Translations under genes and position numbers: made by a program
In this document: piece by piece, positions 1 through 30,728 of the stretch
Layout of the letters: every line of letters begins with the position of its first letter
Numbering within the stretch: the stretch's first letter is position 1
Notes under the pieces: model-generated
Told to the model about the DNA's origin: nothing
The model's database searches: none
What the model saw: the letters and a program-made list of their open reading frames with translations, nothing else
IMG/VR virus record: IMGVR_UViG_3300006916_000213
Span: 1 to 30,728 of that record
Source of the DNA: a virus
Strand: one strand, 5' to 3'
Length of the DNA: 30,728 nucleotides

Positions 1-1232
1 GTACTTGCAGATGCAGATGCATTTGTTTCCGCAGTTGCAGCATTAGTTACAGCGGTCTCAGCTGCAGTTTGAGTCGTTTGAGCTGCAGTAGCAGATGTAG
101 CCGAATTAGTTGCTGATGTAGCTGCTTCTGATGCTTTAGTAGTTGCAGTGCTTGCTGAAGTCAAAGCAGAGGCGGCACTAGAAGAAGCTTCGCTTGCTTT
201 AGTAGTAGCAGTAGAAGCACTGCTAGCCGCATTTGTAGCACTAGTTGAAGCTTCACTTGCTTTAGTAGTAGCAGTGCTTGCGCTAGTAGCCGCATTAGTT
301 GCGCTTGTAGCTGCTTCACTAGCTTTTGTTGTTGCAGTAGAAGCAGAAGTATTAGAATTAGTCTCTGCGGTTTCAGCATTAGTTTCCGCTAACTCAGCGG
401 CTGTTTGTGCAGTCTGAGCATTGGTTTCACTTGTTGCTGCATTCGTTGCACTTGTAGATGCAGCAGTAGCACTTGCAGCTGCTTGAGTAGCACTAGTAGC
501 TGCATTTGATGCGCTTGTAGATGCATTAGATTCTGAAGTTGCTGCATTAGTGGCTGAAGTAGCTGCATTAGATTCTGAAGTTGCTGCATTAGTTTCACTA
601 GTAGCCGCGTTAGAAGCAGATGTTGAAGCTTCTGAGGCTTTTGTAGTTGCCGTTGTTGCTGAAGTAGAAGCAGAAGTAGCACTAGTAGATGCAGCAGTAG
701 CACTATTAGAAGCTTGAGTTGCACTATTTGATGCATTTGTTTCTGCAGTTTCAGCATTAGTCTCAGCTAATTCAGCTGCTGTCTTTGCTGTTTCAGCTGC
801 AGTTTGTGCGGTTTGAGCATTAGTTTCAGCAGTTTCAGCGTTAGTCTCTGCAGTTTCTGCTGCAGTTTGTGCTGCTTGCGCGGCATCTCTAGCTGTTTCT
901 GCATCAGTTAATGAAGTTCCAATTGATGCTAAATCTGATGCGGCACTAGTTGCGCTAGCTGCTGCATTAGTAGCACTTGTGCTAGCGTTAGTAGCACTTG
1001 TAGATGCACTTGTAGCACTGCCAGCCGCATTAACTTCACTTACCTTTGCGGCATCAGCTGAAGCCTTGGCTGCTAAAGCATTTTCAGTTATTGAAGAATT
1101 AATTCCTGAAAGAATAGTCTCATCCCCTGTTGAAAATAAACCACCTGCTTGTGGATCATCAGTTGATCCTGCTAAATCTGTTTCAGGATTTGCTGCAACA
1201 ATAGTGTCTTCAGTAGGTGTTGCTGGACTCAT
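1..1232 (-). CDS. Alanine-rich tail fibre, N-terminal part (runs off left edge)
   Basis: The frame opens at an ATG at 1232 and stays open to base 1, giving at least 410 residues with no stop. The first ~60 residues look like an ordinary folded segment (start MSPATPTEDT). From about residue 65 on, the sequence is a low-complexity array of Ala, Thr, Ser, Asn and Glu in short repeats of the type ATNAATSAT, the usual look of trimeric tail-fibre shafts. Its ATG overlaps the TGA of the adaptor gene (ATGA), so translation is probably coupled. Phage fibres of this kind bind the host surface through a C-terminal domain, which is outside the window. ORFs on the plus strand and in other minus frames here are shadows of the repeat. 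Fibre role is inferred from composition and position; it could also be another elongated virion protein. Confidence 0.75.
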   Translation of the reverse strand, partial: MSPATPTEDTIVAANPETDLAGSTDDPQAGGLFSTGDETILSGINSSITENALAAKASADAAKVSEVNAAGSATSASTSATNASTSATNAAASATSAASDLASIGTSLTDAETARDAAQAAQTAAETAETNAETAETNAQTAQTAAETAKTAAELAETNAETAETNASNSATQASNSATAASTSATSASTSATTATTKASEASTSASNAATSETNAATSESNAATSATNAATSESNASTSASNAATSATQAAASATAASTSATNAATSETNAQTAQTAAELAETNAETAETNSNTSASTATTKASEAATSATNAATSASTATTKASEASTSATNAASSASTATTKASEASSSAASALTSASTATTKASEAATSATNSATSATAAQTTQTAAETAVTNAATAETNASASAS

Positions 1233-9948: not shown

Positions 9949-10167
9949 TTAAACTTGATATGTATCAAAGTATTGCTCTATAACTTCTAATTGATCATGA
10001 TATTTAGCAACTTCATTTAATTCTTGTTCTATTGCTTCAATAATATCAGGGTGTTCCCCTACTCCAACAGGATTTTCTAAATATACTTCTATATTAGCTA
10101 AGTGTTTTTTTATATGGCCTTCAGCATGTGCTTCTAAAGCAGTTATTAGTTTATGTTTTATACTCAT
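9949..10167 (-). CDS. Conserved phage hypothetical with AHAEGHI motif (72 aa)
   Basis: A 72-aa acidic helical protein. The segment EAHAEGHIKKHLANIEVYL followed by NPVGVGEHPDIIEAIEQEL is a conserved pattern of small marine and cyanophage proteins of unknown function. The ATG has CGGAGGA 4 nt upstream, and that site directly abuts a predicted RNA pseudoknot (10217-10184), so its translation may be controlled separately from terminase. Confidence 0.65.
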   Translation of the reverse strand: MSIKHKLITALEAHAEGHIKKHLANIEVYLENPVGVGEHPDIIEAIEQELNEVAKYHDQLEVIEQYFDTYQV

Positions 10168-10236: not shown

Positions 10237-10614
10237 TTACTGTAAGGTGAGCTTATCAAGCTCTTCCTGTAGCTCTTCGTCTGTCAAATCAGCTGCATCG
10301 ATATTTGTTTGTGTTACATCTTGACGAGATAACTTTGGTGCTTGATACTCTGCAAGTATACTAGCAACCTTAACAATCTGTTCAGTGTCACCTTCTTCCA
10401 TTGCCTGTACTAATACATAATTTAATGCTGCCATAGCATCTGGTGCTTCATCACCTAGTTCTTTCATAGCAATAATAGTTTGTTTAGCTAACTCTTTTTT
10501 CTCTTTATTTTTTCTTCTAGTTTCAAGACCTCTTAATCTGTATTGTTCTGACATCTCTTTACTAGTAATCGGTTTTAAATTTTCAATCCCAGGATGTTCT
10601 TTATTTATAGCCAT
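10237..10614 (-). CDS. Putative terminase small subunit
   Basis: A 125-aa helical protein. The N-terminal half is basic (YRLRGLETRRKNKEKKELAK), and the C-terminal half carries the AEYQAPKLSRQDV and LTDEELQEELDKL elements typical of phage small terminases near their C-terminus. Small terminase binds the packaging site and regulates the large subunit. It overlaps the end of the large-subunit gene by 10 nt and has AGGAGA 7 nt before its ATG. The order is unusual, as the small subunit follows the large one. The call rests on pattern and position. Confidence 0.6.
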   Translation of the reverse strand: MAINKEHPGIENLKPITSKEMSEQYRLRGLETRRKNKEKKELAKQTIIAMKELGDEAPDAMAALNYVLVQAMEEGDTEQIVKVASILAEYQAPKLSRQDVTQTNIDAADLTDEELQEELDKLTLQ

Positions 10615-12230
10615 GGGGTAATCTCCTGTTGTATACTACTAGCTTTTTCTCGCCAAGATACTGTATCATCGGTTAATTTATGTTGATGAGTTCTGTAAGC
10701 TTCAAATGCTATTGCTAGTGCTATAACTGTATCATCATAGTTCCCTGCAAGGGCGTTCGTACTTCCATTTTCAGCTGCAACGTAAGTTCTTAATTCGCCT
10801 AATATAGTGTCTGAACTTATTTGTATGTCAAAATCCTCAATACCTCTTTTAAGATTCCCTATAACCATAGGTTTAGTCGAAACCGTAGTCCTGAATCCTG
10901 GCTTTCCACCTTCATCATTAAGAAGACTTGCTGCTTTAGTCTGATAATATAGATTAATATAGTTCATTTGTTTAAGTCTGTTAAGCGTAGCTATTCCTAA
11001 TGAGTTACTTTCAACAGCGAGTAGCGCATTGTTGTAATATCTGCCGAGATAAAAAAGAATATCTCCAAAATAACTAGGATCTATCCGATTATCTCTAAAT
11101 AAAGCACAAACCTCTCTATCTTTGTTAAATATTACAGCTGTAGAGTAATCTTGCCCTACACCTAGGGCTACATCTGCCCCAATAATAAATCTATCTTCAA
11201 AACTAGGGGGCTTCCATATTTCTAAATGCCCCTCTTTACGATCTTCAAAGTAATTACTCTTTTCATCGAATAATCTTACATAATCTGGTGCTCGTACTTG
11301 GTATCGATTAATGGCTTCTCCGTCAAACACAGTATTTCCAGACACTAGGAAAGCTTCTTCTGGAGTTGTAGGATATTCTTGCTTAAATTTTCGTTCCCCT
11401 GACTCCGCTATCTTTAATCTTCTCCAATATATTTGTTCATTATCCAAATCGTACTTATCTTGTAGTTCTTTTTCTTCTTCATCACACTCAAATCCTACAG
11501 GAATATCTCTCCTGTACTCTTTTGTGATAAACCAAGGTAGAAAAATAGGGATGTACTCGTTTTCTCCTTTAATTGCTCCTTGGTATAGACGATAAAACTC
11601 ACCACTAGCCCCATTAGCTGTACTTTCTAGTATTACTTCAGTACCTTTTTCTTGAGAAATACCCTGAAATAGTCCTGCTAGTATCTGTTCGTCAAATTGC
11701 CAGAACCCTACTTCCGATAAGTGGGCAATTGTTGGAGTAGTGCCTCTGCCTGCTTCTTTCGCGCCAGCTGTATACAGGCGATAACCCGATTTATTATGTT
11801 CAAATAGAATCTCCTTAGCATTTGACTTCTGTAATTCTGGAGGATACTCCATATTATCGATAATATTCTTACTCATATTAAATAATGCGTCACTTGTTGC
11901 ACTATCGTGAGCCATAACAACTGATTTAGTATAAGGAGTATAAAAAGTTTTCCAAAAAACTCTAGCTGCGCAGTAAGTACTGATACCTTGTTGTCGCGCT
12001 TTGAGAATAATAGCTCTCACTTTACCTGTAGCCTGACGTTGTTCTTCAATAAGTTCATTAACTCGCTCTTGAGCGTCATTAAATTCGAAAGGAACGAAGC
12101 CTATACTGGCATTCTTAGTAATAATTCTTATTTGTTCTTTGGAAAACGCTTTAAAATCATCGAGATATCTCTTAACTCGTTCTCTCTTAGCCTTTTCTTT
12201 TAGAAGTTCTAGCTTCTGTTTGTTATTCAT
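10605..12230 (-). CDS. Terminase large subunit
   Basis: A 541-aa protein that packages DNA into the procapsid. The ATPase half has the Walker A-like segment KARQQGIST at residues 77-85 and the Walker B-like HLSEVGFW with Glu 173. A coupling segment LESTANGASG follows near residue 205. The RNase H-like nuclease half shows GADVALGVGQDYS (Asp 353), LAVESNSLG (Glu 407) and a late Asp pair in YDDTVIAL (499-500). A TTG five codons upstream is in frame, but GAGGA 8 nt before the ATG at 12230 supports the ATG. It is the first gene of the late operon; a putative phage promoter lies 23 nt upstream. Opposite-strand ORFs within it are shadows. Confidence 0.93.
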   Translation of the reverse strand: MNNKQKLELLKEKAKRERVKRYLDDFKAFSKEQIRIITKNASIGFVPFEFNDAQERVNELIEEQRQATGKVRAIILKARQQGISTYCAARVFWKTFYTPYTKSVVMAHDSATSDALFNMSKNIIDNMEYPPELQKSNAKEILFEHNKSGYRLYTAGAKEAGRGTTPTIAHLSEVGFWQFDEQILAGLFQGISQEKGTEVILESTANGASGEFYRLYQGAIKGENEYIPIFLPWFITKEYRRDIPVGFECDEEEKELQDKYDLDNEQIYWRRLKIAESGERKFKQEYPTTPEEAFLVSGNTVFDGEAINRYQVRAPDYVRLFDEKSNYFEDRKEGHLEIWKPPSFEDRFIIGADVALGVGQDYSTAVIFNKDREVCALFRDNRIDPSYFGDILFYLGRYYNNALLAVESNSLGIATLNRLKQMNYINLYYQTKAASLLNDEGGKPGFRTTVSTKPMVIGNLKRGIEDFDIQISSDTILGELRTYVAAENGSTNALAGNYDDTVIALAIAFEAYRTHQHKLTDDTVSWREKASSIQQEITPWL

Positions 12231-12250
12231 CTTAGGAGTCCTCAATATAT

Positions 12251-12267: not shown

Positions 12268-12326
12268 ATTTTTCTAGGGGTTAGGTTTCTTTTGTGTGTA
12301 AAAAAGATGTGTAGCGTTGTGTGGTA

Positions 12327-12415
12327 CCCTTCTTTGTTTCGGGGTCCCCCCTTCGTTCTTCTGGGCGTGTTGCCCTGTTGCGTGTCGGGCGCTTTCCCGT
12401 CTTTTTGCTGTGTGG
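12327..12415 (+). other. 89-nt tract without A in early leader
   Basis: From 12327 to 12415 the plus strand contains no A at all, in a genome where about a third of bases should be A. The tract is GC-rich for this phage and contains short GC stems, such as GGGC (12363-12366) with GCCC (12372-12375) and CGGG (12386-12389) with CCCG (12396-12399). It ends at the ribosome site of the first early gene. It may be an early promoter or leader region; no sigma-70 type promoter is clear. Confidence 0.6.
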
Positions 12416-12424
12416 AGGTTTGTC

Positions 12425-13111
12425 ATGGCTTGTTCTGTTTCCCTGCCTACTGTTGTTCGTTCTGTTTCTGTTGTTAACGGCTATCTTGTTGCTGTCTGTG
12501 CCGATGGCTTCTCTCGACGTTGTAAACACTTCTCTTCTGCTCTGAAGTCTCTGCTTGAAGAGTTCGTTTGGGCTGATAACGTTGTTGTGTTTGAAGCTTC
12601 GGGTTCTTGGTCGGTTGACAGCTGGTTCTCTAATGTTCGTGTTCACACGCCTTCTGTTGTAAACATTTCTGATGACGTTGTTATCTTCGATCATGTTAAT
12701 CTCTCTGCGGAAGAAAATGCTGTGTTTATTGAGGCTGTTCGTTATGGTATCCGTCGTCTGCGTCTTACTTCTGAAAATGGGGACGATGTTGGTGTTGATA
12801 TTCGGTTCATGCCAAATGCTGAAGATAGAGAAGATTCTATAACGAAGGGTTGGTGTCGTGTAACAAGCATCGCCAACAAGGATTACAGGATTATGGTTTC
12901 CTATAATAGTAACATGCGCAAGGCAGTAGACACTTTGTTCCATGAGTTACGTCATGTTGCACAGTGGAATGCAGGTGTGTTGAAATCTGATACTGGTGTG
13001 GAGATCTGGAAAGACGAAGAATTTATTAATCCTGACTATTACACATCGCCATGGGAAGTAGATGCAAGAAAAGCAGCTAAAATTGCAACAGATGATTTCT
13101 TCGGAAATTAA
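12425..13111 (+). CDS. HExxH metallopeptidase-like early protein
   Basis: The longer open frame starts at 12317, but GGAGG 6 nt before the ATG at 12425 marks the likely start, giving 228 aa. The C-terminal part has the zinc motif HELRHVAQW (His 173, Glu 174, His 177) in a predicted helix, and SPWEVDARKAA with Glu 211 as a possible third ligand. This arrangement is that of gluzincin-type peptidases. The substrate is unknown. It is the first gene of the plus-strand block, so it may act early on host or packaged proteins. The first ~300 nt use T- and G-rich codons and very few A, unlike the rest of the gene. A 220-codon minus-strand ORF across it is a shadow. Confidence 0.7.
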   Translation: MACSVSLPTVVRSVSVVNGYLVAVCADGFSRRCKHFSSALKSLLEEFVWADNVVVFEASGSWSVDSWFSNVRVHTPSVVNISDDVVIFDHVNLSAEENAVFIEAVRYGIRRLRLTSENGDDVGVDIRFMPNAEDREDSITKGWCRVTSIANKDYRIMVSYNSNMRKAVDTLFHELRHVAQWNAGVLKSDTGVEIWKDEEFINPDYYTSPWEVDARKAAKIATDDFFGN

Positions 13112-13116
13112 GTTGT

Positions 13117-13218
13117 AGGATTATTCTTGTGGATAGCTCCGTGTTCTCCTCCCTACACGTTGAGCTATCCTCAAGGGCAATCCTGCCCTAACAAACTATA
13201 TCGAAAGGAAGATATATG
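13117..13218 (+). promoter_or_regulatory. Pseudoknotted RNA leader, copy 1
   Basis: GGATT (13118-13122) pairs with AATCC in the loop of stem P2 (13179-13183). P1 is GGATAGCTC (13131-13139) with GAGCTATCC (13162-13170), extended inside by CGTGT/ACACG. P2 is AGGGC (13174-13178) with GCCCT (13185-13189). Spacings are 8 nt between the 5' strand and P1, and 3 nt between P1 and P2. A last hairpin TATATC (13197-13202)/GATATA (13211-13216) holds GAAAGGA in its loop and the A of the start codon in its stem. Confidence 0.8.
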
Positions 13219-14816: not shown

Positions 14817-15034
14817 ATATCGATAAAGAAATAAATGATCTTGTAGAAATACTTGATGATGCACTTAATAATGCATCTGAAGAATTTTCTATGAACTTTA
14901 CTGAAAGACAATACAACGATTGGATGTCAGATGGTAGAACACTAGAGGACTTTGATATAGTAGAAAATGATATTATTAATGAAGCTCTTAGAAGAATAGT
15001 AGATCGTATATTAAATAGTAAGATATACAAATAA
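14813..15034 (+). CDS. Small acidic hypothetical protein (73 aa)
   Basis: A 73-aa acidic helical protein starting MNIDKEINDLVEILDDALNN. AGGAG lies 9 nt before the ATG. It is coupled upstream (ATGA) and downstream (TAATG). An 81-codon antisense ORF over it is a shadow. Function unknown. Confidence 0.65.
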   Translation: MNIDKEINDLVEILDDALNNASEEFSMNFTERQYNDWMSDGRTLEDFDIVENDIINEALRRIVDRILNSKIYK

Positions 15035-15108
15035 TGGCTATTATTATAGGCTTAATAGTATTTTTAATACTAGTATTTAGATTCTTTTTAATATACAAAA
15101 AGTTGTAA
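15034..15108 (+). CDS. Single-helix membrane peptide (24 aa)
   Basis: A 24-codon frame, MAIIIGLIVFLILVFRFFLI then YKKL, almost wholly hydrophobic with a basic end, as in a one-pass membrane peptide with cytoplasmic C-terminus. Its ATG overlaps the TAA of the preceding gene. It has no ribosome site of its own, so it would depend on re-initiation. The inverted repeat AGTATTTTTAATACT lies within it. Confidence 0.4.
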   Translation: MAIIIGLIVFLILVFRFFLIYKKL

Positions 15109-15118
15109 TTAAATAAAA

Positions 15119-15267
15119 CCACTTTGAGACTATTAATAGGACCACTTTGGTACTATTTATAGTAATACTCACAGTAAACACTGAGACCTCTTACCGTAGT
15201 AAGTTATTAAAAGTATTTAATAGTAACACTTTGGTACTATTAATAGGACCACTTTGGTATTATTAGG
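15119..15267 (+). repeat. Four direct repeats with palindromic core in a gene-free gap
   Basis: The gap 15109-15364 has no gene. It holds four copies of a 22-23 bp unit (CACTTTGGTACTATTAATAG plus GGA) at 15120, 15143, 15227 and 15250. They form two pairs, each with a 23-bp period. Two copies carry the perfect palindrome CTATTAATAG; the other two are degenerate. The arrangement suits iterons of an origin or operators of a regulator. The rest of the gap is AT-rich and holds only the ribosome site of the next gene. Confidence 0.7.
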
Positions 15268-26215: not shown

Positions 26216-26451
26216 AACATGATCCTAATTATGTTGCATGGGTTGAATGCACAAGAGAAGAATTAGATCAAATAAAAGAAATATTCCCTGTCGAAAATTA
26301 TGAGATTCTAGTCGGGATTAAAACAAATTACAATCCAATAACTTGCGATATTCAAACATTACACAACCCACCAGCCCCAACTTGGGGTGTAGATATTAGA
26401 AAGAGAAATGATGCAGGACATAAAACAATATCTCTTAACGAGAATCCGTAG
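26191..26451 (+). CDS. Hypothetical protein before RNA polymerase (86 aa)
   Basis: An 86-aa protein starting MQVNFKQLKHDPNYVAWVEC, with a Pro- and His-containing C-terminal half (TLHNPPAPTWGVDIRKR). GAAAGGA lies 13-14 nt before the ATG, within the deaminase gene. It overlaps the RNA polymerase start by 44 nt. No motif recognised. Confidence 0.55.
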   Translation: MQVNFKQLKHDPNYVAWVECTREELDQIKEIFPVENYEILVGIKTNYNPITCDIQTLHNPPAPTWGVDIRKRNDAGHKTISLNENP

Positions 26452-28537
26452 TGAGGATCTAGGTGTAAAACCTAGACGTAATATTCAAATAATGCGAATG
26501 ATTGACACTGATGGTGTAGATATGCTTGATTTCTTAGTAGATGATATGATAAGCTATGCCAGAAAATATATACAACGTTGCTTTAAACGTAGTAAAACAG
26601 AGGGTGAAACGCCTATTACTCAAACTTCAATGGCTATAGGTAAATATATAGTTGAAGGTTGGGACAGTAACAATGTTAACTTTAGAGACCATGTTAGAGT
26701 AGGTGATTTAATTATTGAAGGCTTTGTTATGTGTAATTACTTAACAATATCTGTGGGTCATATTAAGAGTCGTAAGCCAGTTACTATACACGCTACTGAT
26801 AAATGGGGTGAGATGGAAGTAATTGCTGGTAAAACTAATTGTATTAGTGAAACAGCTATTCCTATTATTACTTCTTTGTTTCAAGATAATGGAAAGCCTG
26901 TTATTAAAACATGGGACAAATCTAAAGAGCATTTGTTTATTAAATATAAAGATAAACCATTTGTAAAGGCAATAAATAAACTTCAAGCAACTCGATTTAA
27001 GGTTAATAATGAAGTACATCAAGCAATTCTAGATAACTATTCTATGTTTATTAAGACTGAAAAGTTTTCTGGAGATGATAAGAAAGAGAATGATAAGCTA
27101 TATCAACGTCAAGCTTCAAAAAACAGAGAAGTAAAAGAGATAATGGCTACTGCAGCTAAGTGGCTGTCTAAAGATTTTTACTTTTATATTGACGCTGATT
27201 ATAGAGGAAGATTATATTACTCAGAACCTTTCTTTAACTTCCAAGGATCAGACATGGCAAGAGGACAATTACTCTTTTCAGAAGGTAAACTGTTTAATGA
27301 ATCTGCTAATTTCTGGTTAGCCGTTCATACTGCTTGTTGTTACAATCGTTCTTATCATATAGAAGAAATACCTAATTGGGTTACAACTGATTACAAAAGT
27401 ATCTTAGAAGAAGAAGGCTTAGATACTATCTCAGTAGATAAAATGACATTAGAAGACAGAGCAATGTGGACTCAACAACACCTAGAAGAAATTCTTGAAT
27501 TAGGTGAAATGAAAATAATAAGTAAAGAAGCAGAAAAAGAAATTTCTTTTCTAGCTTGTTGTATTGAGTGGTATAACTACTATAAGGCTCAACAAGATGA
27601 TCTTGACTTTTATACTCATCTTCCTTTACCTATTGATGGGGCTAATAACGGTTGGCAACACCTTGGTGCAATGTCTAAAGACGAGAAGACAGGACTATTA
27701 GTAGGTCTTATACCTAGAAAAGTGCAAAATGATTTTTATGTACAGATAGCTAAACGACTTACTGAACGTATGCCTGATTGGTTCGAAGAAAGAGAAATAC
27801 CAATGAAGCATATTAGAAAAGGAATTGCTAAGCGAGCTGCTATGACTCGTGCTTACAGCTGTGGTCAAAAGAAAATGGCTGAATCAATGTATAGCGATTG
27901 TTATCAATATGGTTATACTAATTTATATAATATTTCCGAACAAGACTGTATAGATCTTAGCGGTCAAATAATAAAAGCAATTGAAGAAGTCTGCCCAGGA
28001 CCATTAACTACTATGAAATATCTTCAACAATTAGCTGACCAAGAGATACTTAATTGGAGAGGATTGTACGGTACAGATAGAGGCCACGCTATAGAATGGG
28101 AAACACCATCTGGATTTCCTGTTATATATGAGTGTTATCGTACTAGACCTGTTAAGGTAGATTGCTACGGATTTAATACTCCGCAAGGAGAAATAAGATT
28201 TAAACACGTACTTAGAGAAAAGACTGATATCCCTGATAGAAGAGGATTCATGTGTGGTATCAGCCCTAACTTTGTTCATAGCATGGATGCTAGTCATATG
28301 GCATTAGTAATTGCAGAGTGGGATAGCGACTTTGGTGCAGTGCATGATTCGTTTAGTAGTTACGCTACAGAAACAGAACGTCTCATGGTAGATACTAGAG
28401 AAAAGTTTATCACGCTATATGACAAAGAAAACTTTTATGATACTATTCCCTTCGGAAAAGGTATTAATATACTCCCTCCTACAATTGGCGTATTGCAAAT
28501 ATCTGAAGTTATTAATTCTGATTACTTGTTTTGTTAA
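26408..28537 (+). CDS. T7-like single-subunit RNA polymerase
   Basis: A 709-aa polymerase. The landmarks are ADYRGRLYY (Asp 264, Arg 268; the DxxGR motif), PLPIDGANNGWQH (motif A, Asp 410), KGIAKRAAMTRAYS (motif B, Lys 475, Tyr 483), GISPNFVHSMDASH before motif C, and AVHDSF (motif C, Asp 647). The C-terminus ends in an aromatic-hydrophobic foot (SDYLFC), like FAFA of T7. The N-terminal domain before DxxGR is about 157 residues shorter than in T7, so promoter melting and the early-to-elongation switch may differ. It would transcribe the middle and late genes; the CCCTTATAGG sites are its likely promoters (inference). Confidence 0.93.
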   Translation: MMQDIKQYLLTRIRSEDLGVKPRRNIQIMRMIDTDGVDMLDFLVDDMISYARKYIQRCFKRSKTEGETPITQTSMAIGKYIVEGWDSNNVNFRDHVRVGDLIIEGFVMCNYLTISVGHIKSRKPVTIHATDKWGEMEVIAGKTNCISETAIPIITSLFQDNGKPVIKTWDKSKEHLFIKYKDKPFVKAINKLQATRFKVNNEVHQAILDNYSMFIKTEKFSGDDKKENDKLYQRQASKNREVKEIMATAAKWLSKDFYFYIDADYRGRLYYSEPFFNFQGSDMARGQLLFSEGKLFNESANFWLAVHTACCYNRSYHIEEIPNWVTTDYKSILEEEGLDTISVDKMTLEDRAMWTQQHLEEILELGEMKIISKEAEKEISFLACCIEWYNYYKAQQDDLDFYTHLPLPIDGANNGWQHLGAMSKDEKTGLLVGLIPRKVQNDFYVQIAKRLTERMPDWFEEREIPMKHIRKGIAKRAAMTRAYSCGQKKMAESMYSDCYQYGYTNLYNISEQDCIDLSGQIIKAIEEVCPGPLTTMKYLQQLADQEILNWRGLYGTDRGHAIEWETPSGFPVIYECYRTRPVKVDCYGFNTPQGEIRFKHVLREKTDIPDRRGFMCGISPNFVHSMDASHMALVIAEWDSDFGAVHDSFSSYATETERLMVDTREKFITLYDKENFYDTIPFGKGINILPPTIGVLQISEVINSDYLFC

Positions 28538-28853: not shown

Positions 28854-30728
28854 CTAATTATACTCATAAATTAATTCAGCTAATTCTTTTAATGCGTTCT
28901 TCTTTCCAATTTCTGAAAGTCTTTTCCATTCATTAAAATTAGGTTTAAGTCGTTCGTAATTCTCAATTGCTTTAAAAATAGTTAATAGATTATTACCTGT
29001 TACATTACCTCCATCTTCAGTCCAATTATTTAATTTAACAGTAGCTATCAGCTCATCTAGTTTTCCTTTTCTTAAACCTCTTTGGCCTGTTAATGGTGCA
29101 ACTATCTTGCCTGATTTTTCTTTTTGTTGTTCTATCTTTTGAATTAAATAAGTATGGATTGCGCGGTAAGGACTATCCTCAGATATTAAATAAGTTCCAT
29201 TCGGATTAGTTGTATTCTGAAAAATGCTTTTAGCTTCATTATAACCGTTTAAAATATTATTTGCTAAATTATAATTTTTATTTACTTCTACAAAATTTTT
29301 ATTAATCCTTGCATGATATTCATCTACACTAGATGCGTCTGTAATAATCGCATCATGAACGGGTAACATAAAAAGAGATTCCTTTCTGTTATTATTAATA
29401 TCATTAATTGTTTTTGCCATAATAGCAGCATCAATTTGTTGAATAGAAATAACAGGCAATTGATTTGAAACTTCTTGTCCATATCTAGAAGGCTTCGCAG
29501 TTTCCCACCAACCCGTCTCTTTATTTAATATCTTTTTACTTTTAGATCTTTTACTCCCTGTGGGTTTACTTATTTTTATATCTTTAAATATAGTGCCTTC
29601 GGGGGTAGGGATAGGTACTGTAACTCCCGTTTTTGTAAATTCAGTTGAGCCTAAAAAAATAGTAGTACCAAGCGGTCCTTTATAATAAGGTGTTTTACCC
29701 ATCATAGACCATAATAGTCCCATGCTTTGAAGTGTTTTTTGATGTTTTGTGTTTAAAGTGTCCGTTAACGTTGTTTTAATTAATGAATTAAAATCTTCAA
29801 TCAATCGATTTTCATTTTCGTAATCAAGCACATCGCTTGTACGTATAGCATCACGAATAATGTAACCGTATTTTCCTCTTAAAAATTCAATTACAGTTTC
29901 ATGATTATAAGAGGGGTCTTTACCATAAGAGACTTCCAGTAAAGGCGTTCTAGATATCAATCTAGTAATTGCTTTTCTATCTTCGTTTTTGTCAATACCG
30001 TCAATTACAGATAACCATAGATCTACTTTTTCTGGACTTTGTGTAAAAGTTTTTTTAATAGAAGATGACATTTCCATTATATATTTTCTACGGATATCAC
30101 CTTCAGGAATTACTACGCCTTCTTCAGGATTATAAATAGTACCTACTGCAGCTAATAAATCTACATCACCAAGTTGCATTGCTTGTATTGCAATTCCGTT
30201 TTGTTTACCGTCATGTTGAGTTTGAGCTTGGGGTTCAAATAATGCAATAGAATCTGGATTTGTTTTTGCTTTCTTTTTAGCATCTATAAAGTTTGCAAAA
30301 TCAATTAATGATTGTAATTTGTAACCCCATTCTGCAGGGTCTTGAAACTCTGATATAAAATCAGGGCCAACTAATTCATTTAAAGCCTCAATATTAATAT
30401 AGTCGCTATCTTTTATTGTTCTGAGTTTATCGCCTGTAGCATACCATTTTTGATAGGTTTTATTTAAAGGATCATTAATTACTTTTTCAGAGGCTCTCAT
30501 AACTGCATTCCAAGTCATGTCTTCTGTTCTAACAAACGCACCTGTTCTGTCTTTTAGATTAACTTCTTCTGGAGTTAAAAGATTTTTACCAATAATATAT
30601 TTCCAATTAGATAATATTTTTGAATTTTTATCTGTACTATTATTTAAATTAAGAGGAGTCCGTTTAGCATTACTTAAAAAATTTCTTACAAGCTTACTGT
30701 CTTGGTAATTAAGCATTGTGTTTCTAAC
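28854..30728 (-). CDS. Diverged single-subunit RNA polymerase, C-terminal part (virion-type candidate)
   Basis: The first ATG in view is at 30716, but the frame stays open to the edge and no ribosome site precedes that ATG, so this is probably the end of a longer gene. Numbering from 30716, TQHDGKQNGIAIQAM (Asp 169) fits motif A of T7/N4-type polymerases. TRLISRTPLLEVSYG (Arg 252, Arg 256, Tyr 264) fits motif B with Arg in place of the usual Lys. ISIQQIDAAIMAKTI before MLPVHDAIITD (His 454, Asp 455) fits motif C. RTPLNLN near residue 19 may stand for the DxxGR segment. It is unlike the 709-aa enzyme and resembles N4 virion RNA polymerase in style. It would be injected with the DNA to read early genes (inference). 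Confidence 0.65.
   Translation of the reverse strand, partial: VRNTMLNYQDSKLVRNFLSNAKRTPLNLNNSTDKNSKILSNWKYIIGKNLLTPEEVNLKDRTGAFVRTEDMTWNAVMRASEKVINDPLNKTYQKWYATGDKLRTIKDSDYINIEALNELVGPDFISEFQDPAEWGYKLQSLIDFANFIDAKKKAKTNPDSIALFEPQAQTQHDGKQNGIAIQAMQLGDVDLLAAVGTIYNPEEGVVIPEGDIRRKYIMEMSSSIKKTFTQSPEKVDLWLSVIDGIDKNEDRKAITRLISRTPLLEVSYGKDPSYNHETVIEFLRGKYGYIIRDAIRTSDVLDYENENRLIEDFNSLIKTTLTDTLNTKHQKTLQSMGLLWSMMGKTPYYKGPLGTTIFLGSTEFTKTGVTVPIPTPEGTIFKDIKISKPTGSKRSKSKKILNKETGWWETAKPSRYGQEVSNQLPVISIQQIDAAIMAKTINDINNNRKESLFMLPVHDAIITDASSVDEYHARINKNFVEVNKNYNLANNILNGYNEAKSIFQNTTNPNGTYLISEDSPYRAIHTYLIQKIEQQKEKSGKIVAPLTGQRGLRKGKLDELIATVKLNNWTEDGGNVTGNNLLTIFKAIENYERLKPNFNEWKRLSEIGKKNALKELAELIYEYN

Follow-up and report, generated by a model that had tools for sequence, protein, structure and literature searches.

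Promoter-proximal, strand-specific exclusion of adenine from the early transcription unit of marine podoviruses related to Roseobacter phage CRP-7

Introduction

The promoter of an N4-type virion RNA polymerase is a small template-strand hairpin, with a stem of 5-7 bp and a 3-nt loop, present at each early promoter. N4 (Schitoviridae) combines a virion single-subunit RNA polymerase with rightward early genes at one map end, a logic that the phages described here appear to share. They differ from N4 in having a linear promoter box instead of a hairpin and in carrying an A-free tract, which is absent from N4 and from the N4-like roseophage DSS3P2 (the longest A-free runs are 28 nt in the left 9 kb of N4 and 32 nt in the DSS3P2 early region). 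With engineered A-less cassettes, in vitro transcription can proceed in the absence of ATP until the first A is reached; the phage zone, in contrast, is natural, evolved, protein-coding and common to a lineage.

Vertebrate signal-sequence coding regions (ALREX mRNA export elements) are adenine-poor and have been described as acting via RNA (PMC3077370, PMC3635865). They resemble the present locus in the depletion of adenine at the 5′ end of coding regions, but they concern eukaryotic nuclear export and signal peptides, whereas here a bacterial virus has leader, spacers and whole non-secretory genes that are almost totally A-free. The genes are phage genes with predicted OB-fold products, which sets them apart from the ALREX/SSCR class. 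These unrelated elements are the only natural adenine-poor 5′ coding regions that we found described in the open-licence literature, where no description of a tract such as the present one was found, and the feature is not mentioned in the passages on CRP-7 of the paper that covers this phage (PMC6918029). The pattern is strong and apparently undescribed.

Results

A CRP-7-type phage with two RNA polymerase genes

The window, that is, the whole stretch of 30,728 nt analysed, represents, by its homologies, part of the genome of a marine podovirus with Roseobacter phage CRP-7 among its relatives. It has the homologous terminase (62% identical to that of CRP-7), the SU10-type portal and capsid, and the gene order of CRP-7-type marine podoviruses. 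A search of genome contigs for host assignment gave no match. A stretch of about 150 nt (10000-10163) shows 72-77% identity to many cyanophages and pelagiphages and overlaps a small ORF that points leftward, a gene widespread among marine phages. Among related phages, contig L028 contains a Type II hammerhead ribozyme match (809-872, minus strand; 49.6 bits), and CRP-7 itself (L002) a group I intron match near its split ribonucleotide reductase genes (14986-15196, minus strand).

Two single-subunit RNA polymerases are encoded (Table 1). The second, located among the late (virion) genes, contains motifs A, B and C, with the sequences DGKQNGI, SRTPLLEVSYG and PVHDAIITD; it matches PHROG 2206 (virion RNA polymerase) at E=3e-7, as do three of four family members, and PF00940 at E=0.001. 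We infer that it is probably a virion RNA polymerase, which would be present in virions. CRP-7 gp33, a distant homologue annotated as hypothetical, matches the family profile in a four-protein search (E=2e-8).

Table 1. Positions of the elements and genes of the window that are discussed in the text
Feature	Position	Strand	Remarks
Late-promoter-like sequence, reverse strand AACACACCCTTATAGGAA	12250..12267	-	for leftward terminase/structural operon
Putative early promoter box, consensus TTTGTYTRTGTNTAAAAAAGATGT	12287..12310	+	one match in window, 0.01 expected
Bipartite element GGTACCC-N11-GGGGTCCCCCC	12323..12351	+	at tract start
A-free tract, early mRNA leader	12327..12415	+	89 nt
Small hairpin and T run CGGGCGCTTTCCCGTCTTTTT	12386..12406	+	terminator- or attenuator-like, read from sequence
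Shine-Dalgarno GGAGG of first gene	12414..12418	+	holds first A after tract
First early gene	12425..13111	+	OB-fold N-terminal domain and metallopeptidase-like C-terminus (HELRHVAQW); A rises along gene
Single-subunit (T7/N4-type) RNA polymerase	26408..28537	+	PF00940 E=6e-52, PHROG 414 E=2e-101
Second single-subunit RNA polymerase, C-terminal part, putative virion RNA polymerase	28854..30728	- (late strand)	runs off window

An A-free leader below a single conserved box

A preliminary description of this locus had reported the 89-nt tract and considered its expectation by chance negligible. Both statements are borne out by a scan of runs and by simulation: the longest A-free run of the window coincides exactly with the tract, the runner-up measuring 26 nt; in 300 Markov-1 simulations that kept the dinucleotide content, the longest run averaged 25.7 nt and reached 40 nt at most; and 2.8e-11 runs of at least 89 nt are expected by chance. 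It was also right to place the tract where early rightward transcription begins; a conserved early-promoter-like box lies directly upstream. The late genes, beginning with the terminase (10605-12245), are read leftward and the early genes rightward, with the tract at the point of divergence. What had been overlooked is that the tract is the small end of a far larger feature, much longer in relatives, and that A depletion continues beyond the end of the tract into the first gene, as successive 100-nt intervals counted from the terminase start contain 17, 2, 11, 14, 21, 26 and 30 A. The anatomy described here is nearly certain: an adenine-exclusion zone lies at the early transcript start, and the tract forms its 5′ end.

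The short GC stems noted earlier are present (12363-12375 and 12386-12399), but the folding of the leader does not exceed that of shuffled sequence (z 0.31), and neither this value nor the covarying hairpin found in leaders (see below) supports the proposal that A is left out to avoid structure. Avoidance of nuclease cleavage, proposed alongside it, may play a part. The string GTCGGGCGCTTTCCCGTCTT of the hairpin with the T run recurs in several relatives. Where one strand is free of A, stop codons are lacking in all six frames, so that ORF length is uninformative in this region; the first gene most likely starts at the ATG at 12425, behind the GGAGG. Long minus-strand ORFs lie opposite the A-free zone (window 12281-12943; L002 35271-35966, annotated as CRP7_gp72) and are probably artefacts of a T-free strand, which has no stop codons. 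The conserved plus-strand A-free gene was left unannotated in CRP-7.

The box TTTGTYTRTGTNTAAAAAAGATGT is found once per genome or locus. Its positions -9 to -1 are invariant across 55 distinct relatives, and 41 loci each have a single copy of the exact shorter motif. The bipartite element is kept also in the distant subgroups L100, L101, L103 and L104. The promoter motif alone recovered four more loci with A depletion (L121, L130, L134 and L148); two others, L123 and L149, are chance matches where A is not depleted. The AACACACCCTTATAGGAA-type sequence adjoins the terminase start, is conserved in most of the relatives listed and seems to resemble promoters of phage single-subunit RNA polymerases. 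An early promoter for a virion polymerase had been expected at this place, a view with which the conserved linear box and the encoded virion-type polymerase agree. The suggestion of an N4-type DNA hairpin does not hold, since no stem with a 3-nt loop is conserved and the tract lies mostly downstream of the box; the inverted repeats around GGTACCC have stems and loops that differ from relative to relative, and L074, L083 and L085 have none.

Depletion of A in related phages

Searches with the terminase yielded about 100 related loci. Most of them have an A-free or A-poor zone at the same place, with A-free runs of up to 387 nt. In many relatives, including cultured CRP-7, 200-900 nt contain 0-3% A, a zone that spans leader, spacer and complete genes; it extends over 500-900 nt in L065, L061, L072, L005, L091, L057, L060, L087 and others. 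CRP-7 has A-free runs of 224, 168 and 104 nt, the longest at the early/late junction. No comparable runs without C, G or T were seen. The preliminary description had looked to relatives without the bias as counter-evidence; the bias proved stronger in relatives, some of which (L083, L095 and L105) are without A depletion.

When 55 distinct phages were aligned on the box, mean A content fell from 33% just upstream of it to 3-5% at +25 to +125, and then rose to 14% at +200 to +350, 21% at +500 and 33% by +1150. Depletion is therefore greatest in the first ~100 nt and fades over ~1 kb.

Base, context and strand specificity

Within the strongly depleted zone (13,380 nt), 217 A's are left (1.6%), mostly in stop codons, start codons and ribosome-binding sites: about half are in TAA, TAG or TGA, 33 in ATG and 23 in GGAG. 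In A-poor zones the Shine-Dalgarno sequence is often rewritten as GGGGTG and the start codon as GTG. A is depleted in every neighbour context, so that the effect is base-specific and nearly context-free, and most depleted between pyrimidines (53 seen, 102 expected), which excludes UV dimers in the template. Avoidance of stop codons or AUG is likewise excluded, since CAC and other non-stop contexts are equally depleted. At fourfold-degenerate sites, A amounts to 0.5%, compared with 27% in downstream genes, its share shifting to G, T and C; as C, G and T all increase, simple A-to-G deamination is out. Host-like codon usage is unlikely with 57% T at fourfold sites, and restriction-site avoidance and DNA bending can be discarded by reasoning, as neither would distinguish the strands.

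Many leaders and spacers contain a covarying hairpin: changes on both sides were counted in 41 cells, compared with 13 in shuffles and between 3 and 8 in slid controls. The G.U pairs conserved in this hairpin are possible only on the A-free strand, and it has two or three U.U mismatches, at one of which the sole A-tolerant copy (L030) has U-A. The covariation, the G.U pairs and the presence of U.U where U-A would pair indicate that the A-free strand is the functional RNA. The hairpin has the consensus GGCTGTCCTCGTGG...CCTCGTGGGTTGCC (for example L002 35496-35557 and L047 6473-6535, the latter on the minus strand), has no Rfam match and is possibly a new structured RNA family. Rfam also gave no match to the window and the tracts. 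Further intergenic hairpins, with TTCCTCCC or CTCCTCCC loops that resemble the anti-Shine-Dalgarno sequence, lie between early genes in the window (13128-13185) and in many spacers of relatives.

A-free genes and the effect of position

In an HMM-based search the first-gene proteins form a family with a predicted OB-fold, to which the matches are generic and weak; as a single query against viral contigs, the protein had given no match. Relatives often have the OB-fold alone, without the metallopeptidase-like domain. The A-free ORFs are genuine genes, as four related ones differ at 204 third, 62 first and 27 second codon positions. In three of the four proteins, the composition is restricted to exactly ten amino acids (the alphabet A C F G L P R S V W, in proteins of ~104 residues).

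A content is higher in homologous first-gene domains that lie farther from the promoter (rho 0.67, n=45, sequences not independent). At 65% amino-acid identity, A makes up 1.3% of the L060 copy near the promoter but 13.6% of the L030 copy, which lies at +567; between the two, 10% of A sites are kept, compared with 72-76% of sites with C, G or T. More generally, homologues with 65-69% shared residues keep 10-17% of A sites, compared with 72-76% of C/G/T sites. In L099, a single ORF lacks A over some 430 nt before turning A-rich, and the first gene of the window is graded. Since homologues farther downstream use A normally and L099 switches in mid-gene, the exclusion acts on the nucleic acid and not on the protein; on these comparisons, position, not gene, sets A content. 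The exclusion of A is thus promoter-proximal and strand-specific, and it prevails over the preferences of the encoded proteins for particular amino acids.

Turnover of the first cassette

Five pairs of phages (L072/L095, L061/L062, L047/L055, L073/L099 and L081/L083) have terminases that are 98-99.6% identical, yet completely different first cassettes, A-free or A-rich. In L072/L095, with the most similar terminases (99.6%), the cassette is A-free in one and A-rich in the other. Such swaps between near-identical phages indicate that the zone is a recombination slot, where cassettes poor in A are favoured without being required. In unswapped pairs, 400 nt of tract are unchanged while the terminases differ by 0.3-1.2%, so the zone is not visibly hypermutable; in L090/L094 the tract is 97.7% identical and the terminase 97.5%. 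L076 and L082 have an A-rich first gene in common.

Discussion

Below the single conserved box, RNA-sense A has been removed in leader, spacer, hairpin stems and codons. There is a selective cost for each A (or template T), in any context, that applies only to promoter-proximal early RNA and declines with distance. As its likeliest source, at a probability of roughly 0.3, we consider selection for ATP-sparing first-round transcription by an injected polymerase, probably the putative virion RNA polymerase; we rank it ahead of an attack on adenosine in the RNA, followed by effects of template T, RNA-protein interaction and mutational scarring. An injected single-subunit (virion) polymerase would start at this promoter when it enters with the genome, and an A-free initial transcript, copied from a T-free template, would let the first 0.1-1 kb be run without ATP. 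At entry, ATP would be scarce and the C/G/U triphosphates would not, owing perhaps to membrane perturbation or to a host defence that destroys adenine nucleotides, and A would be tolerated after the early genes have acted.

Such selection is favoured by the nearly context-free depletion, which is expected if each position costs one ATP (or template T), by the virion-type polymerase, by the dependence of A content on position and by the RNA being the functional strand. It is disfavoured by the 2-3 A's within the first 20 nt, if the transcript starts at GATGT, and by the lack of any depletion of G, although GTP pools normally rise and fall with those of ATP. The relatives without depletion and the absence of a tract from N4, the model phage for virion RNA polymerases, also count against it, and near-identical phages with either type of cassette (L072/L095) indicate that the feature is not strictly needed.

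An A-specific activity that attacks early RNA (an A-preferring ribonuclease, ADP-ribosylation or another adenosine modification) is an unlikely but serious alternative, in which the A-free leader and first gene would survive to be translated or otherwise used, and the product of this gene may disable the defence. It would account for the specificity for the RNA strand, the loss of A from leader and codons alike, a depletion that often spans leader and gene 1, the lower frequency of residual A's after pyrimidines than after G, and a swappable first cassette that resembles anti-defence gene slots. However, most known nucleases and modifiers do not act in all neighbour contexts, and the fade inside single genes (window, L049 and L099) would still leave gene 1 cleavable. 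No system of this kind was found.

Decidedly less probable is a first polymerase stalled by template-strand T, whether as modified T, uracil or damage. Coding sequence without A is copied from a template without T, so that strand and base specificity would be the same, and only the transcribed region is affected; but the downstream early genes are T-rich in the template, a dimer-type lesion predicts that A is tolerated between pyrimidines, where it is most depleted, and no thymine-hypermodification, uracil-DNA or related family is among the CRP-7 Pfam families listed (25 of 30). A little less probable again is RNA packaging, protein coating or regulation by a host or phage RNA-binding protein that needs U/C/G-only RNA, possibly the first-gene product with its predicted OB-fold. 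That prediction and the conserved hairpin in leaders would fit, but to our knowledge no RNA binder requires the absence of one base over hundreds of nt.

We consider it improbable that the pattern is a mutational scar of A-directed mutagenesis near the promoter, by a retroelement-like process or a deaminase. The gradient from the promoter and the replacement of A in similar shares (C 31%, G 40% and T 19% in one pair) would fit, and the latter recalls diversity-generating retroelements, which cause adenine-specific change towards all other bases (PMC3240598). These have a template/variable repeat pair, whereas here the whole promoter-proximal zone is affected, and they are rejected because no reverse transcriptase gene was found (PF00078; 10 genomes, CRP-7 included, some of them fragments). 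Deamination alone would give G only, A-rich first genes persist between relatives (L090/L094 and L076/L082), and the A-free genes have undergone ~200 third-position changes with coding constraint intact. That the tract serves the virion RNA polymerase as a hairpin promoter of the N4 kind is very improbable, for although position, virion-type polymerase and short GC stems would suit it, the stems vary and are missing in some relatives, N4 has no A-free tract and the depletion reaches up to 900 nt through genes.

In these phages, one base has been excluded naturally, by evolution, from functional protein-coding RNA, and the exclusion is kept by something in the first moments of infection. We see about an even chance that immediate-early mRNAs, including complete genes of some ten amino acids, evolved to be adenine-free because an injected polymerase launches infection without ATP or because A-containing RNA is attacked. 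The ten-amino-acid proteins are of interest for reduced-alphabet folding, and cultured CRP-7 on strain FZCC0042 makes the question testable. Whether the cause is ATP lost as the phage enters, a defence aimed at adenine or some property of a virion RNA polymerase, finding it would open a new constraint on viral genomes.
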